From Lutibacter sp. Hel_I_33_5 (lineage in GTDB: Bacteria > Bacteroidota > Bacteroidia > Flavobacteriales > Flavobacteriaceae), in contig NZ_VISM01000001.1 in assembly GCF_007827455.1 (NCBI RefSeq), forward strand, positions 2,395,501 through 2,459,500: DNA of 64,000 nucleotides. The letters are read 5' to 3'. Position numbers and translations under genes: made by a program. Shown one piece after another: positions 51,558-57,159 of the stretch (its first letter is position 1; every line of letters begins with the position of its first letter). Below the pieces are notes generated by a model. The model did not search any database and was not told the DNA's origin. It saw only the letters and a program-made list of their open reading frames with translations.

Positions 51558-54500
51558 CTATTTAATCACTTTTACATTCATTTCCTCAACTTTTTTATCA
51601 GATAAAGGAGAAGGAGCGTTAAATAATAAATCTTCACTGGATCCTGTTTTTGGGAAAGCCATGACTTCTCTAATAGATGCTTTTTTCTCTAAAATCATCA
51701 TCAATCGATCAATTCCCCAAGCAATTCCACCATGAGGAGGAGCACCGTATTGAAACGCTTTGTACATGGTTCCAACACTTTTCATCATTTCTTCTTTATT
51801 GTACCCCATATTTTTATAGGTAGCTTCTAATATTTCAGCTTTATGTGCACGAACTGAACCACCACCGATTTCAAAACCATTTAAGATTAAATCATATTGT
51901 TGCGCTATGATTGTTCCAATTTCATCATCATTTCCAGTCATATGTTTTTCTAAATCATAAATTGCTGGCATAGAAAAAGGATTATGTGTAAACGTCCATC
52001 TTCCTTCTTCTGTTTTTTCAAACATTGGGAAATCTACCACCCAAGCTGGTCTTAATTCCTTTGAGTTAATCAACTTTAAAATTCTACCCATTTCCTGGCG
52101 AACAGCATCTAATGCTTTATTAGCAGTTGCATAATCTGCAGCAGAGAAAAATACAATGTCACCAATTTGAGCGTCAGCAGCTTTAATAATGTTGGCAGCA
52201 ATCTCTTCACCTAAAAACTTAATGATTGGCGATTGTAAATCATTTTCATTCACAATAATATAGGCTAAACCTCCAAGCCCATTTTGTTGAGCAATTGCTG
52301 TTAGGTTTTCAATTTGACCTTTAGACATACGTTTCTTACCTTGTTCTTTTGCAGAAACTTTAATACATTTTACAATTCCACCATCTTCAATAGGTTTGCT
52401 AAAAACTTGAAATGTAGTGTCTTTTACAATTTCAGTAATATCTTGCATTTGTAATCCGAAACGTAAATCTGGTCTGTCGCAACCGTATTTATCCATCGCA
52501 TTTTTATAGGTAATAACTTCAAACGGATGTAAAATCCATTTTTTACCATATATTTTTGTCACCACTTCATTAAACATTTTTGTGTTTAAATCTATGATTT
52601 GTTGCATACTAGCATATGCTAATTCTATATCTAATTGTGTGAATTCTGGCTGACGATCTCCACGAGAATCTTCGTCTCTAAAACAACGAGCAATTTGGAA
52701 ATATTTCTCAAAACCACCAACCATTAACATTTGCTTAAACTGTTGAGGTGCTTGTGGCAAAGTATAAAAAGAACCTGCTTGTTTTCTTGTTGGAACAATA
52801 AATTCTCTAGCACCTTCATCAGTTCCAGCGGTTAAAATAGGCGTTTCAATTTCTAAGAATTCTTCTTCATCTAAAATATCACGTAATAACTTAATTACTC
52901 TATGACGATTTACAATTGCCTTGCGAACATCGTCATTTCTGTGGTCTAAAAACTTGTATTGAAAACGAGTAGTTTCATTTGTTTTCATTGCTCTTTTTAT
53001 TTCAAAAGGCAATGTTTTAGATAAATTTAATATTTCTAAAGTGGCTGTTTCTAATTCTAGTTTACCTGTTCTTAAACCTGCATTATAGTCATCTTCTTTT
53101 CTTTGAACAACAATTCCAGTAACCATAATTACAGTTTCTGGTTTCAATTTAACAAGTTCATCTAGATTTGGGAATGACTCTCTACTTAATCGTACTTGAA
53201 ATATTTGATTGCTAGAATCACGTAAATCGATGAAAATTAATTCCCCATGATCTCGCACACTAGAAACCCAACCAGATAAAGTTACTTCTTCGTTAATTGA
53301 AGTTTCTGTTAGTTGAGAGATTTTATGTGTTCTATATTCATCTTTTATGATGATAGGAACTTGAGTTAATTCTTCTTCTGCTTTAGCTATTTGCTTTTGG
53401 CTATTCGTTTTTTGTTTTTCGTTTCCATTATTTTCACTTCCAACTTCACCAGAAAGAGAACTTAAAATTCCTTCTCTAATTACTTTTCCTGAAGCACCTT
53501 TACCAATAATAGCGATTACTTTACCAACTAAAATACCAGCTTTACCTTGGTTTCCTCCTTTGATATCATTTGCAACTGCTTCGTTTTCTGAAATTACTTT
53601 TTTGATGGCATTTTGAATTTGCGCTTCAGAAATAGTATTCTCTTTAAAGTAAGTTGTATAATCAAAACTAGCATTATCTAATAATGATTTTATAGCATTT
53701 TGAGCAAGAACTACAGTTACTTTGTTTTCTTTAAGTAGTGAGAAAATGGTTGTGAAATCTTCAATATTTTGAATCTTCACATAATCTTCAGGTTTAATAT
53801 TATTGGTTAGTGTTTTCGCAACAAATGACGCATCACCAATCTTGTTGTTAATCGTGACAAAGGTTTCAGATCGTAATGAATCTCCAGTGAAAAACTTTGC
53901 GTCTTGCGGTAAAACACCACCTTTAATTAGTATTGACTCTACGGCAAAAGGTAAGGCGCTTGTATCTACATCAATAGACTCTACAACTTCTTTTATACTA
54001 ACAAAAGGTAAATCTGGTTCAGAGATAAAGCGATAATCTGCTTCAAACTCCTTTTTACGCATCGTCTTTGTTTGCTTTAATTCTGCATCAAATAAAACGG
54101 TAGTTTGGTCGGGTCTAAATTTTTTATGCTCAACAAAATAGTTTAGTTGCTTTTCAATTTCTTCCTTTAAAGCATCGACCATAAACTTAAACGAGTTTAG
54201 GTTTTTTATTTCTGTTCTGGGGTTTAAATCGTTGCTTCCTTTTTTACGTAAAGAGACAGAAACATCCGATTTAAATTCACCTTTTTCAAGGTTAGCTTCC
54301 GATATTTTTAAATTTTGAACAATACGCTGTATGTATTGCGCGTAGGTTGATGCATCTTCAATATTACGAACACATGGTTCTGTAACTATTTCTATTAAAG
54401 GTACACCTGCTTTATTAAAATCGACTAAAGAAACATTCTTTTCGTGCATTAATTTTGCTGCGTCTTCCTCAATATGAGTTTGAGTTAGTTCAACAGTAAA

Positions 54501-54881
54501 CTGTGATCCATCATTTCTAAAACACGATACTTTTCCATCTGGAATTACCGGATTGTGGTATTGTGTAATTTGAATATTTTTCGGGTTATCTGGGTATTCG
54601 TAATGCTTTCTATCCCACGAGATGATTTCGTTTGAAAAACTAGATTCTACAGCTTTTCCAAAGTAAATAGCTTTTGTAATCGCTTCTTTATTAATAGCGG
54701 GTAATACACCCATTTGCCCTGTACAAACTGAACAAATATTTTCGTTAGGTTTGTCTATTTCAGTGTTTGGACACGAACAAAATAATTTTGTCTTTGTGTT
54801 TAATCGTACGTGTGTTTCAAGTCCGATAACCAACTCTAAATCTTGTGCTTCAATCGCTGCGTTTAATTGCTCTAATTCCAT
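51558..54881 (-). CDS. gatB/aspS: Fused amidotransferase subunit GatB-aspartyl-tRNA synthetase
   Basis: Residues 1 to about 478 are a full GatB with the N-terminal VIGLETHVRLNTKTKLFCSC, the zinc cysteines CSC and CSVC, and the C-terminal YqeY-like helices ending GKASGKVIREGILSSL. A hydrophilic linker of about 35 residues (GEVGSENNGNEKQKTNSQKQ) follows. From about residue 515 a complete bacterial-type AspRS begins: OB fold with SSVRDHGELIFIDLRD, motif 2 FRDEDSRGDRQPEFTQLDIE, a GAD insert, and motif 3 GGIAWGIDRLMMIL. The enzyme would mis-charge tRNA(Asn) with Asp and hand it directly to the amidotransferase. It is the last gene of gatC-gatA-gatB/aspS, with its start at the gatA stop. Confidence 0.95.
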   Translation of the reverse strand: MELEQLNAAIEAQDLELVIGLETHVRLNTKTKLFCSCPNTEIDKPNENICSVCTGQMGVLPAINKEAITKAIYFGKAVESSFSNEIISWDRKHYEYPDNPKNIQITQYHNPVIPDGKVSCFRNDGSQFTVELTQTHIEEDAAKLMHEKNVSLVDFNKAGVPLIEIVTEPCVRNIEDASTYAQYIQRIVQNLKISEANLEKGEFKSDVSVSLRKKGSNDLNPRTEIKNLNSFKFMVDALKEEIEKQLNYFVEHKKFRPDQTTVLFDAELKQTKTMRKKEFEADYRFISEPDLPFVSIKEVVESIDVDTSALPFAVESILIKGGVLPQDAKFFTGDSLRSETFVTINNKIGDASFVAKTLTNNIKPEDYVKIQNIEDFTTIFSLLKENKVTVVLAQNAIKSLLDNASFDYTTYFKENTISEAQIQNAIKKVISENEAVANDIKGGNQGKAGILVGKVIAIIGKGASGKVIREGILSSLSGEVGSENNGNEKQKTNSQKQIAKAEEELTQVPIIIKDEYRTHKISQLTETSINEEVTLSGWVSSVRDHGELIFIDLRDSSNQIFQVRLSRESFPNLDELVKLKPETVIMVTGIVVQRKEDDYNAGLRTGKLELETATLEILNLSKTLPFEIKRAMKTNETTRFQYKFLDHRNDDVRKAIVNRHRVIKLLRDILDEEEFLEIETPILTAGTDEGAREFIVPTRKQAGSFYTLPQAPQQFKQMLMVGGFEKYFQIARCFRDEDSRGDRQPEFTQLDIELAYASMQQIIDLNTKMFNEVVTKIYGKKWILHPFEVITYKNAMDKYGCDRPDLRFGLQMQDITEIVKDTTFQVFSKPIEDGGIVKCIKVSAKEQGKKRMSKGQIENLTAIAQQNGLGGLAYIIVNENDLQSPIIKFLGEEIAANIIKAADAQIGDIVFFSAADYATANKALDAVRQEMGRILKLINSKELRPAWVVDFPMFEKTEEGRWTFTHNPFSMPAIYDLEKHMTGNDDEIGTIIAQQYDLILNGFEIGGGSVRAHKAEILEATYKNMGYNKEEMMKSVGTMYKAFQYGAPPHGGIAWGIDRLMMILEKKASIREVMAFPKTGSSEDLLFNAPSPLSDKKVEEMNVKVIK

Positions 54882-56281
54882 TATAGTACGTCGTTTAAAA
54901 AGTTAGCAAAAGTTAAAACTTTATCGTCATTTTTTTTCGCTGCCGATATTTGTAATCCTGTAACTGTTCCTTTAGGAATGGTTAATGTTGGTAATTGTGC
55001 TAAGCTAAAACCAACGGTGTATGCGTCTGATAAATACATGGCCAACGGATCTTTTAAGCTGTTTCCTATTTCTGGCGGAGCTGCTGGTGTTACTGGAGAT
55101 AAAATAATATCTACATCGTTAAAATCGGCGTCAAAACTTTGTGAGATTTGATCTCTTAAAGCTAATCCTTTTAGGTAAATAGCATCTGAAAACCCTTGTG
55201 ATAATACTTGATTTCCACCAACAATTCTGCGTTTTGTTTCTTCAGAAAAATTTTCTGAACGTGTTACAGCGTAGGTTTCTTTTAAATTGTCAGATTCAAT
55301 TCTATTTCCATAGTTAGTGCCATCTAAGCGCGATAGGTTAGAGGCTGTTTCTGCCATAGCAAGTGTATAATAAGTAGAAACTAATGTGTTCGATTCAAAA
55401 AAGTCTAAGGCTTTAACTTCAATACCCTTGGCTTTTATTTTTTCAATAGTTTTTAAAAAATCTGCTTTTACCTGAGTGTCAATAGCATCAGAATCTATGA
55501 AGTTTTTAAAATACCCAACAGATTTAACAGTATTGGAATTTAAAATATCAGCATCATTAATATCTTCTGATTGATACGTGGTTTGATCTTTAGCATCTTT
55601 TCCACTCATTGTATTTAGTACAATACGAATATCTTCGATCGATTTTGCTAAAGGTCCTACACAATCGGTTGACGATGCATAAGCCATTAATCCGTAACGT
55701 GAAATACGACCGTAAGTTGGTTTTAAACCATAAACGGAATTATATCCAGCAGGTTGACGTACAGAACCACCAGTGTCGCCTCCTATAGAAAATACGGTGT
55801 AATCTTTTGCAACATTTACAGCCGATCCACCACTAGATCCACCACCAACTAAATTAGGATTATTGGCATTTTTCACAGCGCCAAATATGGTGTTCTCACT
55901 TGACGATCCGTGACCAAAGCTATCACAGTTTTCTTTTACAATCGGTATTGCACCTGCGTCTAATAACTTCTGGATTGCCGTTGCTGTATAAGCCGATTTA
56001 TAGTTTTTTAATAAATTAGAACTAGCCGTTGTGTTTGTGCCCTGAAACATATACACATCTTTAATGCCGAAAGGAATACCTTCTAATAAACCTATAGATT
56101 CACCATTGTTTATTTTAGCATCAACTTTAGCCGCTAATTCTAAAGCAATAGTATCAAGTAAAGTGTTTACTGAATTGTGTGTGTTTTGCTGTAAAAGGTC
56201 TAATTTTTCTTGAATTAGTGCTGTGCAAGTAATTTGTTTAGACACCAGTTGTTGGTGTGTTTTTTTTATCTGCGACTCCAT
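54881..56281 (-). CDS. gatA: Asp/Glu-tRNA amidotransferase subunit A
   Basis: GatA is the glutaminase/amidase subunit that releases ammonia for the amidation of Asp-tRNA(Asn) or Glu-tRNA(Gln). The amidase triad is visible: Lys in FGIKDVYMFQGTN, the cis-Ser in GGGSSGGSAVNVA and the nucleophile Ser in GGDTGGSVRQPAG. The length of 466 residues is slightly short of the usual ~485. It starts two bases after gatC, and its last base overlaps the start of gatB/aspS, so the three subunits are translated together. Confidence 0.95.
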   Translation of the reverse strand: MESQIKKTHQQLVSKQITCTALIQEKLDLLQQNTHNSVNTLLDTIALELAAKVDAKINNGESIGLLEGIPFGIKDVYMFQGTNTTASSNLLKNYKSAYTATAIQKLLDAGAIPIVKENCDSFGHGSSSENTIFGAVKNANNPNLVGGGSSGGSAVNVAKDYTVFSIGGDTGGSVRQPAGYNSVYGLKPTYGRISRYGLMAYASSTDCVGPLAKSIEDIRIVLNTMSGKDAKDQTTYQSEDINDADILNSNTVKSVGYFKNFIDSDAIDTQVKADFLKTIEKIKAKGIEVKALDFFESNTLVSTYYTLAMAETASNLSRLDGTNYGNRIESDNLKETYAVTRSENFSEETKRRIVGGNQVLSQGFSDAIYLKGLALRDQISQSFDADFNDVDIILSPVTPAAPPEIGNSLKDPLAMYLSDAYTVGFSLAQLPTLTIPKGTVTGLQISAAKKNDDKVLTFANFLNDVL

Positions 56282-56282
56282 G

Positions 56283-56549
56283 TTAATCTTCTATAACTTT
56301 TGAAACTACTAAATAACCGTTCTTTTCTTTCGGAAAGTTTTCTTTTATTATTGTGCGTTCTATTTCAGAACTTTTAACTACGATATCTTCTCGCAAATCA
56401 GTTAATGACACAGCGTTGTAATTGCCATTGCTAGAAGTATTGTTATCTGTATGTGCATTTTTAATTACATCAAATAATTGATTAACCGCTTCCGAAGGTT
56501 TCGCGCCTTTAATACTCGATAAAATATCGACTGTCATTATTTTACTCAT
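56283..56549 (-). CDS. gatC: Asp/Glu-tRNA amidotransferase subunit C
   Basis: GatC is the small belt subunit that wraps around GatA and contacts GatB. This 88-residue version is diverged at the N-terminus but keeps the C-terminal pattern LTDLREDIVVKSSEIERTIIKENFPKE-NGYLVVSKVIED (LREDxxxxS, FPxxxxGYxxVxxVIE). Its place at the head of the gat operon supports the call. It lies 24 bases downstream of the attenuator terminator stem, so its expression depends on read-through. Confidence 0.88.
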   Translation of the reverse strand: MSKIMTVDILSSIKGAKPSEAVNQLFDVIKNAHTDNNTSSNGNYNAVSLTDLREDIVVKSSEIERTIIKENFPKEKNGYLVVSKVIED

Positions 56550-56572: not shown

Positions 56573-56600
56573 AAAAAAGCCTTCCAAATTTGGAAGGCTT
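56573..56600 (-). terminator. Attenuator terminator upstream of gatC
   Basis: On the minus strand AAGCCTTCCAAA (56600-56589) pairs perfectly with TTTGGAAGGCTT (56588-56577) and runs into six T. The 5' arm of this stem can instead pair with TGGAAGG at 56631-56625. Confidence 0.92.
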
Positions 56601-56631
56601 TATTTATATATGTTTAAACAACAACCTTCCA
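56589..56631 (-). promoter_or_regulatory. Antiterminator region of the gat attenuator
   Basis: TGGAAGG (56631-56625, just after the leader stop codon) is complementary to CCTTCCA (56597-56591) in the terminator 5' arm. The adjacent TTGTTGTT (56624-56617) is complementary to AACAACAA (56670-56663) within the Asn codons. These are the region 1:2 and 2:3 pairings of a classical attenuator. Confidence 0.85.
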
Positions 56632-56634
56632 GTC

Positions 56635-56682
56635 CTAACAATTAGGATTATTGAAATTATTATTGTTGTTATTATGTTTCAT
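56635..56682 (-). CDS. Asn-rich leader peptide of the gatCAB/aspS operon
   Basis: The reading frame is MKHNNNNNNFNNPNC followed by TAG: 15 residues, nine of them Asn, including six in a row (AAT AAC AAC AAT AAT AAT). It begins about 15 bases after the expected transcription start, is followed within 4 bases by the antiterminator, and stops before gatC. The Asn codons are the expected sensor: low Asn-tRNA stalls the ribosome there and favours read-through. No Gln codon is present, which argues that the operon senses Asn and not Gln. The peptide itself probably has no function. Confidence 0.9.
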   Translation of the reverse strand: MKHNNNNNNFNNPNC

Positions 56683-56702
56683 TTTTGTTTAAAAATTGGT
56701 GG

Positions 56703-56732
56703 CAAATATATATAGAATTGTTTTGCTCACAA
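56703..56732 (-). promoter_or_regulatory. Promoter of the gat leader and operon
   Basis: On the minus strand TTG (56732-56730), exactly 19 bases and TATATTTG (56710-56703) form a full Bacteroidota consensus. The start site is expected near 56696. Confidence 0.85.
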
Positions 56733-57009: not shown

Positions 57010-57041
57010 TTTGTTCAAATAGATTTAGGTCTCTACATTTG
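57010..57041 (+). promoter_or_regulatory. trp operon promoter
   Basis: TTTG (57010-57013), 20 bases and TACATTTG (57034-57041) match the Bacteroidota consensus. Transcription should start just before or at the leader peptide ATG, so the leader is almost leaderless. Confidence 0.82.
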
Positions 57042-57048
57042 CCATTCA

Positions 57049-57096
57049 ATGATGAAACAAATAAACATATGGTGGTGGAACTCTCTTAATCAATAA
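57049..57096 (+). CDS. trpL: trp leader peptide
   Basis: The frame reads MMKQINIWWWNSLNQ and TAA; the second ATG (57052) may be the real start. Three consecutive TGG codons are the Trp sensor. GTGAGA immediately after the stop (57097-57102) can pair with TCTCAC in the terminator loop region, and CATATGG over the first Trp codon can pair with CCTATATG at 57109-57116. This is the standard arrangement for Trp-dependent attenuation. Confidence 0.92.
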   Translation: MMKQINIWWWNSLNQ

Positions 57097-57130
57097 GTGA
57101 GAATAGATCCTATATGTAAAAAATAAAGAA

Positions 57131-57159
57131 AAGGCTTATCTCACGATAAGCCTTTTTTT
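57131..57159 (+). terminator. trp attenuator terminator
   Basis: AAGGCTTATC (57131-57140), loop TCAC and GATAAGCCTT (57145-57154) form a perfect 10-base stem followed by T to 57159. It lies 31 bases upstream of trpE. Confidence 0.93.

Follow-up and report, generated by a model that had tools for sequence, protein, structure and literature searches.

What controls the predicted amidotransferase operon of Lutibacter sp. Hel_I_33_5, whose first gene is preceded by a very small asparagine-rich open reading frame and a hairpin? We analyzed a stretch of 64,000 nucleotides (the window; contig NZ_VISM01000001.1, positions 2,395,501 to 2,459,500) for which a first-pass annotation had proposed an Asn-codon attenuator controlling a gatCAB/aspS operon. 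All of the sequence parts it named are found: a promoter-like site, a leader with nine Asn codons, both complementarities, and a terminator with six T's. The whole element lies on the minus strand in the order promoter-like site, leader ORF, alternative stem, terminator, gatC-like gene. The predicted promoter (56703 to 56732) comprises TTG (56732 to 56730), a 19-base spacer, and TATATTTG (56710 to 56703). In 48 of 49 related elements, a −7-type box, TAnn[TC]TTG, occurs 18 to 31 bases 5′ of the leader start, a frequency that falls to about 5% when sequence is shuffled; the consensus in the accessible text of PMC9723704 is TAnnTTTG. Farther 5′ of the leader promoter, a stretch AATAATTTGATAATA...TAGGATA looks conserved by eye in leader-bearing loci (e.g., L062, L024, and L009) and is a possible regulator site.

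The leader ORF MKHNNNNNNFNNPNC (56635 to 56682) has 15 codons, nine of them Asn, and ends in TAG. Region 1 (56652 to 56667) consists of Asn codons complementary to region 2, with AACAACAA matching TTGTTGTT (56624 to 56617). Region 2 itself (GGAAGGTTGTTGTT, 56617 to 56630) begins directly 3′ of the stop and would form the 5′ strand of an antiterminator, in whose core GGAAGGTT (56630 to 56623) pairs with AGCCTTCC (56599 to 56592), part of the terminator 5′ arm. Region 3 (AAAGCCTTCC, 56592 to 56601) is common to antiterminator and terminator, and region 4 with the T run (GGAAGGCTTTTTT, 56573 to 56585) supplies the terminator 3′ arm and six T's. The resulting hairpin, AAAGCCTTCC-AAATTT-GGAAGGCTTT (arms at 56601 to 56592 and 56585 to 56576, T's at 56578 to 56573), is an intrinsic terminator located between the leader ORF and the gatC-like gene, the first structural gene.

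That gene (56283 to 56549, minus strand) encodes a divergent 88-aa protein that scores below the cut-offs of both TIGR00135 (E = 1.2e-4; 22.3 bits, cut-off 47.1) and PF02686 (18.4 bits, cut-off 23). When a 12-sequence profile of it was compared with solved structures, a GatC chain came last of eight (E = 0.72), behind seven unrelated chains, and we call the protein GatC-like, an identity at which these matches weakly hint. It also carries an Asn-rich loop, NNNSFNNNHNN-like in relatives, at leader-less loci included. It is followed on the same strand by GatA (54881 to 56281; 466 aa; TIGR00132 E = 1.1e-129 at 433 of the 481 cut-off bits, and Amidase PF01425 over its cut-off) and by a 1,107-aa protein (51558 to 54881) in which GatB is fused to a bacterial-type AspRS, with both the GatB and AspS models over their cut-offs, a GAD domain, and the motif RDHG in the anticodon domain. 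The annotated operon stands as to a gatC-like gene, gatA, and gatB; what had been called a separate aspS gene is the C-terminal half of the GatB-AspS protein.

The region is very AT-rich, AAT/AAC repeats arise easily, and such a stretch could lie by chance beside the terminator of another gene. However, the upstream neighbor is a divergent trp operon (trpE-like gene first) with its own Rfam-recognized Trp leader, and so no gene ends at the Asn-leader terminator. We also scanned 1.73 Mb (both strands of 80 related loci, the best 80 of 173 GatA relatives) for small ORFs with at least six Asn codons and at least 30% Asn. The scan returned 24 ORFs, of which one had no terminator and the 23 followed by a terminator were the 23 leaders described below; the window holds one such ORF, the leader. 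A chance ORF is ruled out by this background and, with 49 distinct elements conserving the arrangement, we regard a fortuitous origin of the whole as extremely improbable. An Rfam scan of the whole window gave a single match, the Bacteroid-trp leader RF01692 at 57029 to 57140 on the plus strand (MMKQINIWWWNSLNQ by eye), and no family at the Asn leader. Two leader-peptide attenuators thus appear to stand back to back. A T-box riboswitch (no T-box match in the window) and RF01692 itself (matching only at its own site, on the other strand) were both discarded as identities for the Asn leader.

Among the 80 named loci, the leader unit is present or absent as a whole: it occupies the same place in 23 and is missing from 57. 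None of its four parts was found in those 57, except for one stray hairpin motif in L076; upstream sequence reached at least 800 bases in 54 of them and 66, 138, and 430 bases in L034, L051, and L078, respectively. The conservation of leader and stems among relatives, which the first-pass annotation had proposed as a check, thus holds for 23 loci, and the remaining 57 have the operon with neither, as the annotation's own refuting condition in part foresaw. Such operons mean that the unit can be replaced, but they do not show it to be idle in the genomes that keep it. A covariance model built from 24 elements was then searched in 397 sampled genomes of the family and matched 39 of them at E = 1.1e-7 or better, with one match in the window genome. 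In 37 of these 39 (the window genome and 36 others) the match is an Asn leader directly 5′ of gatC; the other two are one ilv-type leader and one region with no leader. GatB is encoded in 59 of the 397 genomes, in open frames of 1,114 to 1,130 aa in 58 and of 809 aa in one fragmented assembly, and judging by length, the frames outside the window and the named loci are AspRS fusions as well. The leader is present in 36 of these 59 genomes and absent from 23; one further genome, G130, has the leader and gatC near a contig end, and gatB was not found there. Across 295 genomes of the class (model E = 1e-6), three matches were obtained, namely the window genome, one leader of asnA, and one located before a gene that we take to be pheA-like, and no further gat leader was found.

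A quick tree of 81 GatA sequences requires 10 changes in leader presence (mean of shuffled data, 20.9), at least 4 of them forced by well-supported branches. This patchy distribution is most simply read as repeated loss, with gain by transfer as another possible route. The enzyme set was considered as a cause of leader loss and set aside, since three leader-less and three leader-bearing named genomes do not differ in it: all six have frames of AspS, GatB-AspS, LysS, and AsnS length, and one has a second AspS-length frame.

Conservation was assessed on an alignment of 49 distinct elements (A2), namely the 24 of alignment A1 and 25 of the 37 model matches, 12 duplicates having been dropped. In all 49, the frame is open as far as TAG and contains 7 to 10 Asn codons (one frame starts with GTG), and the third positions of these codons alternate between AAT and AAC among elements. 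Asn at codons 4 to 9, 11, and 12 of the window leader is kept in 45 to 49 of the 49 and at codon 14 in 34, whereas codon 15, which directly precedes the stop and at which a stalled ribosome would cover region 2, is Asn in none. The antiterminator core (GGAAGGTT with AGCCTTCC) is paired in 392 of 392 cells, with six cells changed on one side only. The terminator is paired in 98.1% of cells, and two-sided changes affect 3 pairs and 22 cells, a level that none of 500 shuffles reached. The stem between regions 1 and 2 is paired in 94.3% of cells and shows no clear covariation, as 37 to 327 of 500 shuffles reached the observed values. The proposal of an Asn-codon attenuator gains from these comparisons: 49 distinct copies conserve the four parts (frame, Asn codons, alternative stem, and terminator) jointly, and 37 of the 39 top model matches stand before gatC.

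We modeled the switch by folding the RNA with a masked ribosome footprint and the A site placed at positions along the leader. In nascent RNA extending to region 3, the mean antiterminator value was at least 0.99 for A sites between 2 and 12 codons ahead of the stop; it fell to 0.05 at a distance of one codon and to 0.00 at the stop itself. This position dependence is consistent with codon 15 never being Asn. Without a ribosome, the nascent antiterminator was favored (0.94); the region 1:region 2 stem was not a strong competitor in the model. At equilibrium, the terminator won at every ribosome position (mean, 0.83 to 1.0). Since the terminator wins at equilibrium and the antiterminator is favored without a ribosome, we infer a kinetic switch whose main step is the covering of region 2 by a ribosome that has reached the stop codon. 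With ample Asn-tRNA, a ribosome at the stop codon would cover region 2, the terminator would form, and transcription would end before gatC. With scarce Asn-tRNA, a ribosome stalled at an Asn codon would leave region 2 to pair with nascent region 3, a pairing that would pre-empt the terminator and allow the operon to be transcribed. Sequence and comparison establish the frame, the Asn run, the place of region 2 behind the stop, its complementarity to the terminator 5′ arm, and the joint conservation of all of these, while complementarity and position-dependent folding in silico suggest that antiterminator and terminator cannot form together and that the position of the ribosome decides whether the antiterminator is free or covered.

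The stability of the terminator, which is the most stable equilibrium fold wherever the ribosome is placed, would also suit a constitutive partial terminator that sets a fixed low level of gatCAB-aspS, with a leader ORF that protects the RNA or aids translation initiation and with no response to an amino acid. Such a device leaves unexplained the Asn run, the invariant antiterminator complement after the stop, and the Asn-rich leaders of asnA and asnB described below, and we consider it very improbable. Weighing against an attenuator are the 57 named loci and the 23 GatB genomes that lack the leader, the want of clear covariation in the region 1:region 2 stem, the one-sided changes in the antiterminator core, and the need for kinetic trapping in the folding model. 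On balance, we hold with good confidence that positions 56682 to 56573 are a trp-type ribosome-mediated transcription attenuator that senses Asn-tRNA before gatC-gatA-gatB/aspS and would raise transcription of that operon when Asn-tRNA is scarce.

Other genes of asparagine synthesis, too, have Asn-rich leaders and terminators in front of them. Such leaders were found before asnA in 13 of 41 places read, comprising 9 of 26 family loci (L149 to L157; 26 of the 29 AsnA genomes were fetched) and 4 of 15 places in the class (L175, L176, L177, and L180, which belong to three other families); the other 17 family loci and 11 class places, one of which (L179) is ambiguous, showed no Asn leader. In L150 to L153, L156, L157, and L176, two leaders apparently stand in tandem, both with a terminator behind them; the second frame, which contains PPPGG in L151, L156, and L157, runs into its own terminator in these three loci. 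The first leaders of L150, L156, and L157 and the leader of L177 were missed by the scan and called by eye. Before asnB, 3 of 20 loci (L200 to L202) have an Asn-rich leader with a terminator and 17 have no Asn leader, among them L198 with an Asn-rich ORF that lacks a terminator. An Rfam scan of eleven asnA/asnB leader loci matched no family. A search for an antiterminator helix gave p values of 0.07 or less in 9 of 16 of these leaders and nothing in 7, in which region 2 seems by eye to lie inside the leader ORF.

These leaders bear on what is being sensed. A run of N residues or FNNPN might stall the ribosome for reasons other than Asn-tRNA (factor limits, drugs, or nascent-chain arrest), in which case the same stems, which would serve any stall, would antiterminate in response to slowed translation in general or to the peptide. 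At the protein level, FNNP hardly varies among the gat leaders; its codons, however, are nearly invariant as nucleotides too and take part in pairing, so that peptide and RNA constraint are indistinguishable there. The asnA and asnB leaders share the Asn richness of the gat leader but not FNNP. The Asn codons follow the pathway and not one gene, which is the strongest argument for Asn-tRNA sensing, and we judge a sensor of general stalling or of the peptide to be improbable. Beyond Asn-tRNA sensing at the gat operon, it seems probable that Asn-tRNA attenuation is a portable control across Bacteroidota, with Asn leaders fitted partly independently, and sometimes in tandem, to the GatCAB-AspRS fusion, AsnA, and AsnB, and with the gat sensor reading the Asn-tRNA that its own operon makes.

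Lower matches of the covariance model fall mostly on leaders of another kind. Of the 13 regions read (L126 to L138), which scored 63, 58, and at most 48 bits, none was counted as an Asn leader: Ile/Val-rich leaders were present in ten, and three held no leader. Behind nine of the ten is a gene that we take to be ilv-like, and the tenth (L129) stops at a contig edge. The layout of these leaders (L126 and L128 to L136), and of a Phe-rich leader before a presumably pheA-like gene (L140), is as in the Asn attenuator; L128 also has a SAM-II Rfam match.

The enzyme complement of the genome bears on the function of the operon. Over curated cut-offs, the window genome encodes AsnS, LysS, a standalone (second) AspS, GltX, and GlnS, so that GatCAB genes (GatC below its curated cut-offs) and an extra AspRS stand beside AsnRS and GlnRS. 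The first-pass annotation had called for a search for asnS and glnS: both are present, and because AsnS is present, a role in asparagine biosynthesis fits the operon better than one as the sole source of Asn-tRNA. The Asn-only role predicted from the absence of Gln codons in the leader fits the presence of GlnS and GltX. AsnA was not found in the window genome, and its one AsnB-like protein, which passes the TIGR01536 cut-off but not that of PRK09431, is encoded in a glycan-like gene cluster (with genes that we take to be neuA/neuB/neuC-like) and may or may not make asparagine independently of tRNA. Within the family, AsnB over the PRK09431 cut-off occurs in 0 of 40 genomes with gatB (25 of them leader-bearing) and in 39 of 40 without it, an exclusion with a Fisher p of about 8e-22 if kinship is ignored. 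In the exceptional genome, G104, gatB, AsnA, and AsnB over that cut-off were all not found. AsnA is present in 29 of 397 family genomes and in 0 of the 59 with gatB (Fisher p = 0.013, again ignoring kinship). Neither of the two sampled congeners of the window genome has gatB, and AsnB is present in both, although the AsnB match of one (G137) spans two stop codons.

The variable residue of the RDHG motif may mark relaxed AspRS specificity. RDHG is present in the fused enzyme at all 74 loci (of 80) at which the pattern matched and in solved enzymes named Asp/Asn, compared with RDKG in the standalone AspRS and RDLG in the E. coli and Thermus chains. The tRNA-Asn gene has the U1-A72 pair that GatCAB needs according to the accessible text of PMC4206432, which is weak evidence given that tRNA-Gln here has U1-A72 too. 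From its predicted enzymes, the operon looks like asparagine biosynthesis by the tRNA route, in which the fused AspRS would load Asp on tRNA-Asn and GatCAB would amidate the resulting Asp-tRNA-Asn. With Asn-tRNA as the probable product of the fused AspRS and GatCAB, the leader would sense the product of its own operon.

Several known systems are close to this arrangement. As in trp- and his-type attenuation (RF01692 included), a leader ORF rich in codons for the end product, mutually exclusive antiterminator and terminator, and a T run stand before the first gene, but here the codon is Asn, the target is GatCAB-AspRS, and no Rfam family matches. T-box control of transamidation in Clostridium, as presented in the available portion of PMC4052509, likewise relies on an RNA element that lies 5′ of a transamidation operon and senses tRNA-Asn; there, however, the RNA binds the tRNA directly (also tRNA-Glu), whereas here a translated leader would act via the ribosome. 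The tRNA-dependent Asn synthesis of the Deinococcus/Thermus type (PMC4206432, as far as its accessible text goes) shares AsnRS, GlnRS, GatCAB, a second AspRS, and the lack of AsnA and of a curated AsnB, but its second AspRS is archaeal-type, unlike the bacterial-type, GAD-containing, GatB-fused enzyme with a leader before its operon described here. In the same text, some Bacteroidetes are already listed with the genera that have AsnRS, GlnRS, and GatCAB but lack an Asn synthetase; the pathway there is therefore not new, and the leader appears to be. For Flavobacterium psychrophilum, of the same bacterial family, the accessible part of PMC9723704 gives clues for the same kind of control, leader-peptide attenuation upstream of amino acid operons, but asparagine and gatC are absent from its main text. 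Neither the main text of PMC2965389 nor the available text of PMC4833913, PMC7366714, and PMC2494555 contains an account of Asn-codon attenuation or of leader control of gatCAB. Our literature searches, in which few subscription papers were covered, gave among the matches listed no report of Asn-codon attenuation or of leader-peptide control of gatCAB or tRNA-dependent amidation. The kind of control predicted here is a known one; its apparent specificity (Asn) and target (gatCAB-aspS) were not found in print.

If this reading is true, the control is a direct loop: what the leader measures, Asn-tRNA, is also what the operon makes. The almost mutually exclusive occurrence of AsnB and gatB in the sampled Flavobacteriaceae genomes suggests a role for the accessory GatCAB-AspRS fusion, and the leader would offer a ready test of when asparagine is made on tRNA by bacteria that possess AsnRS as well as GatCAB.
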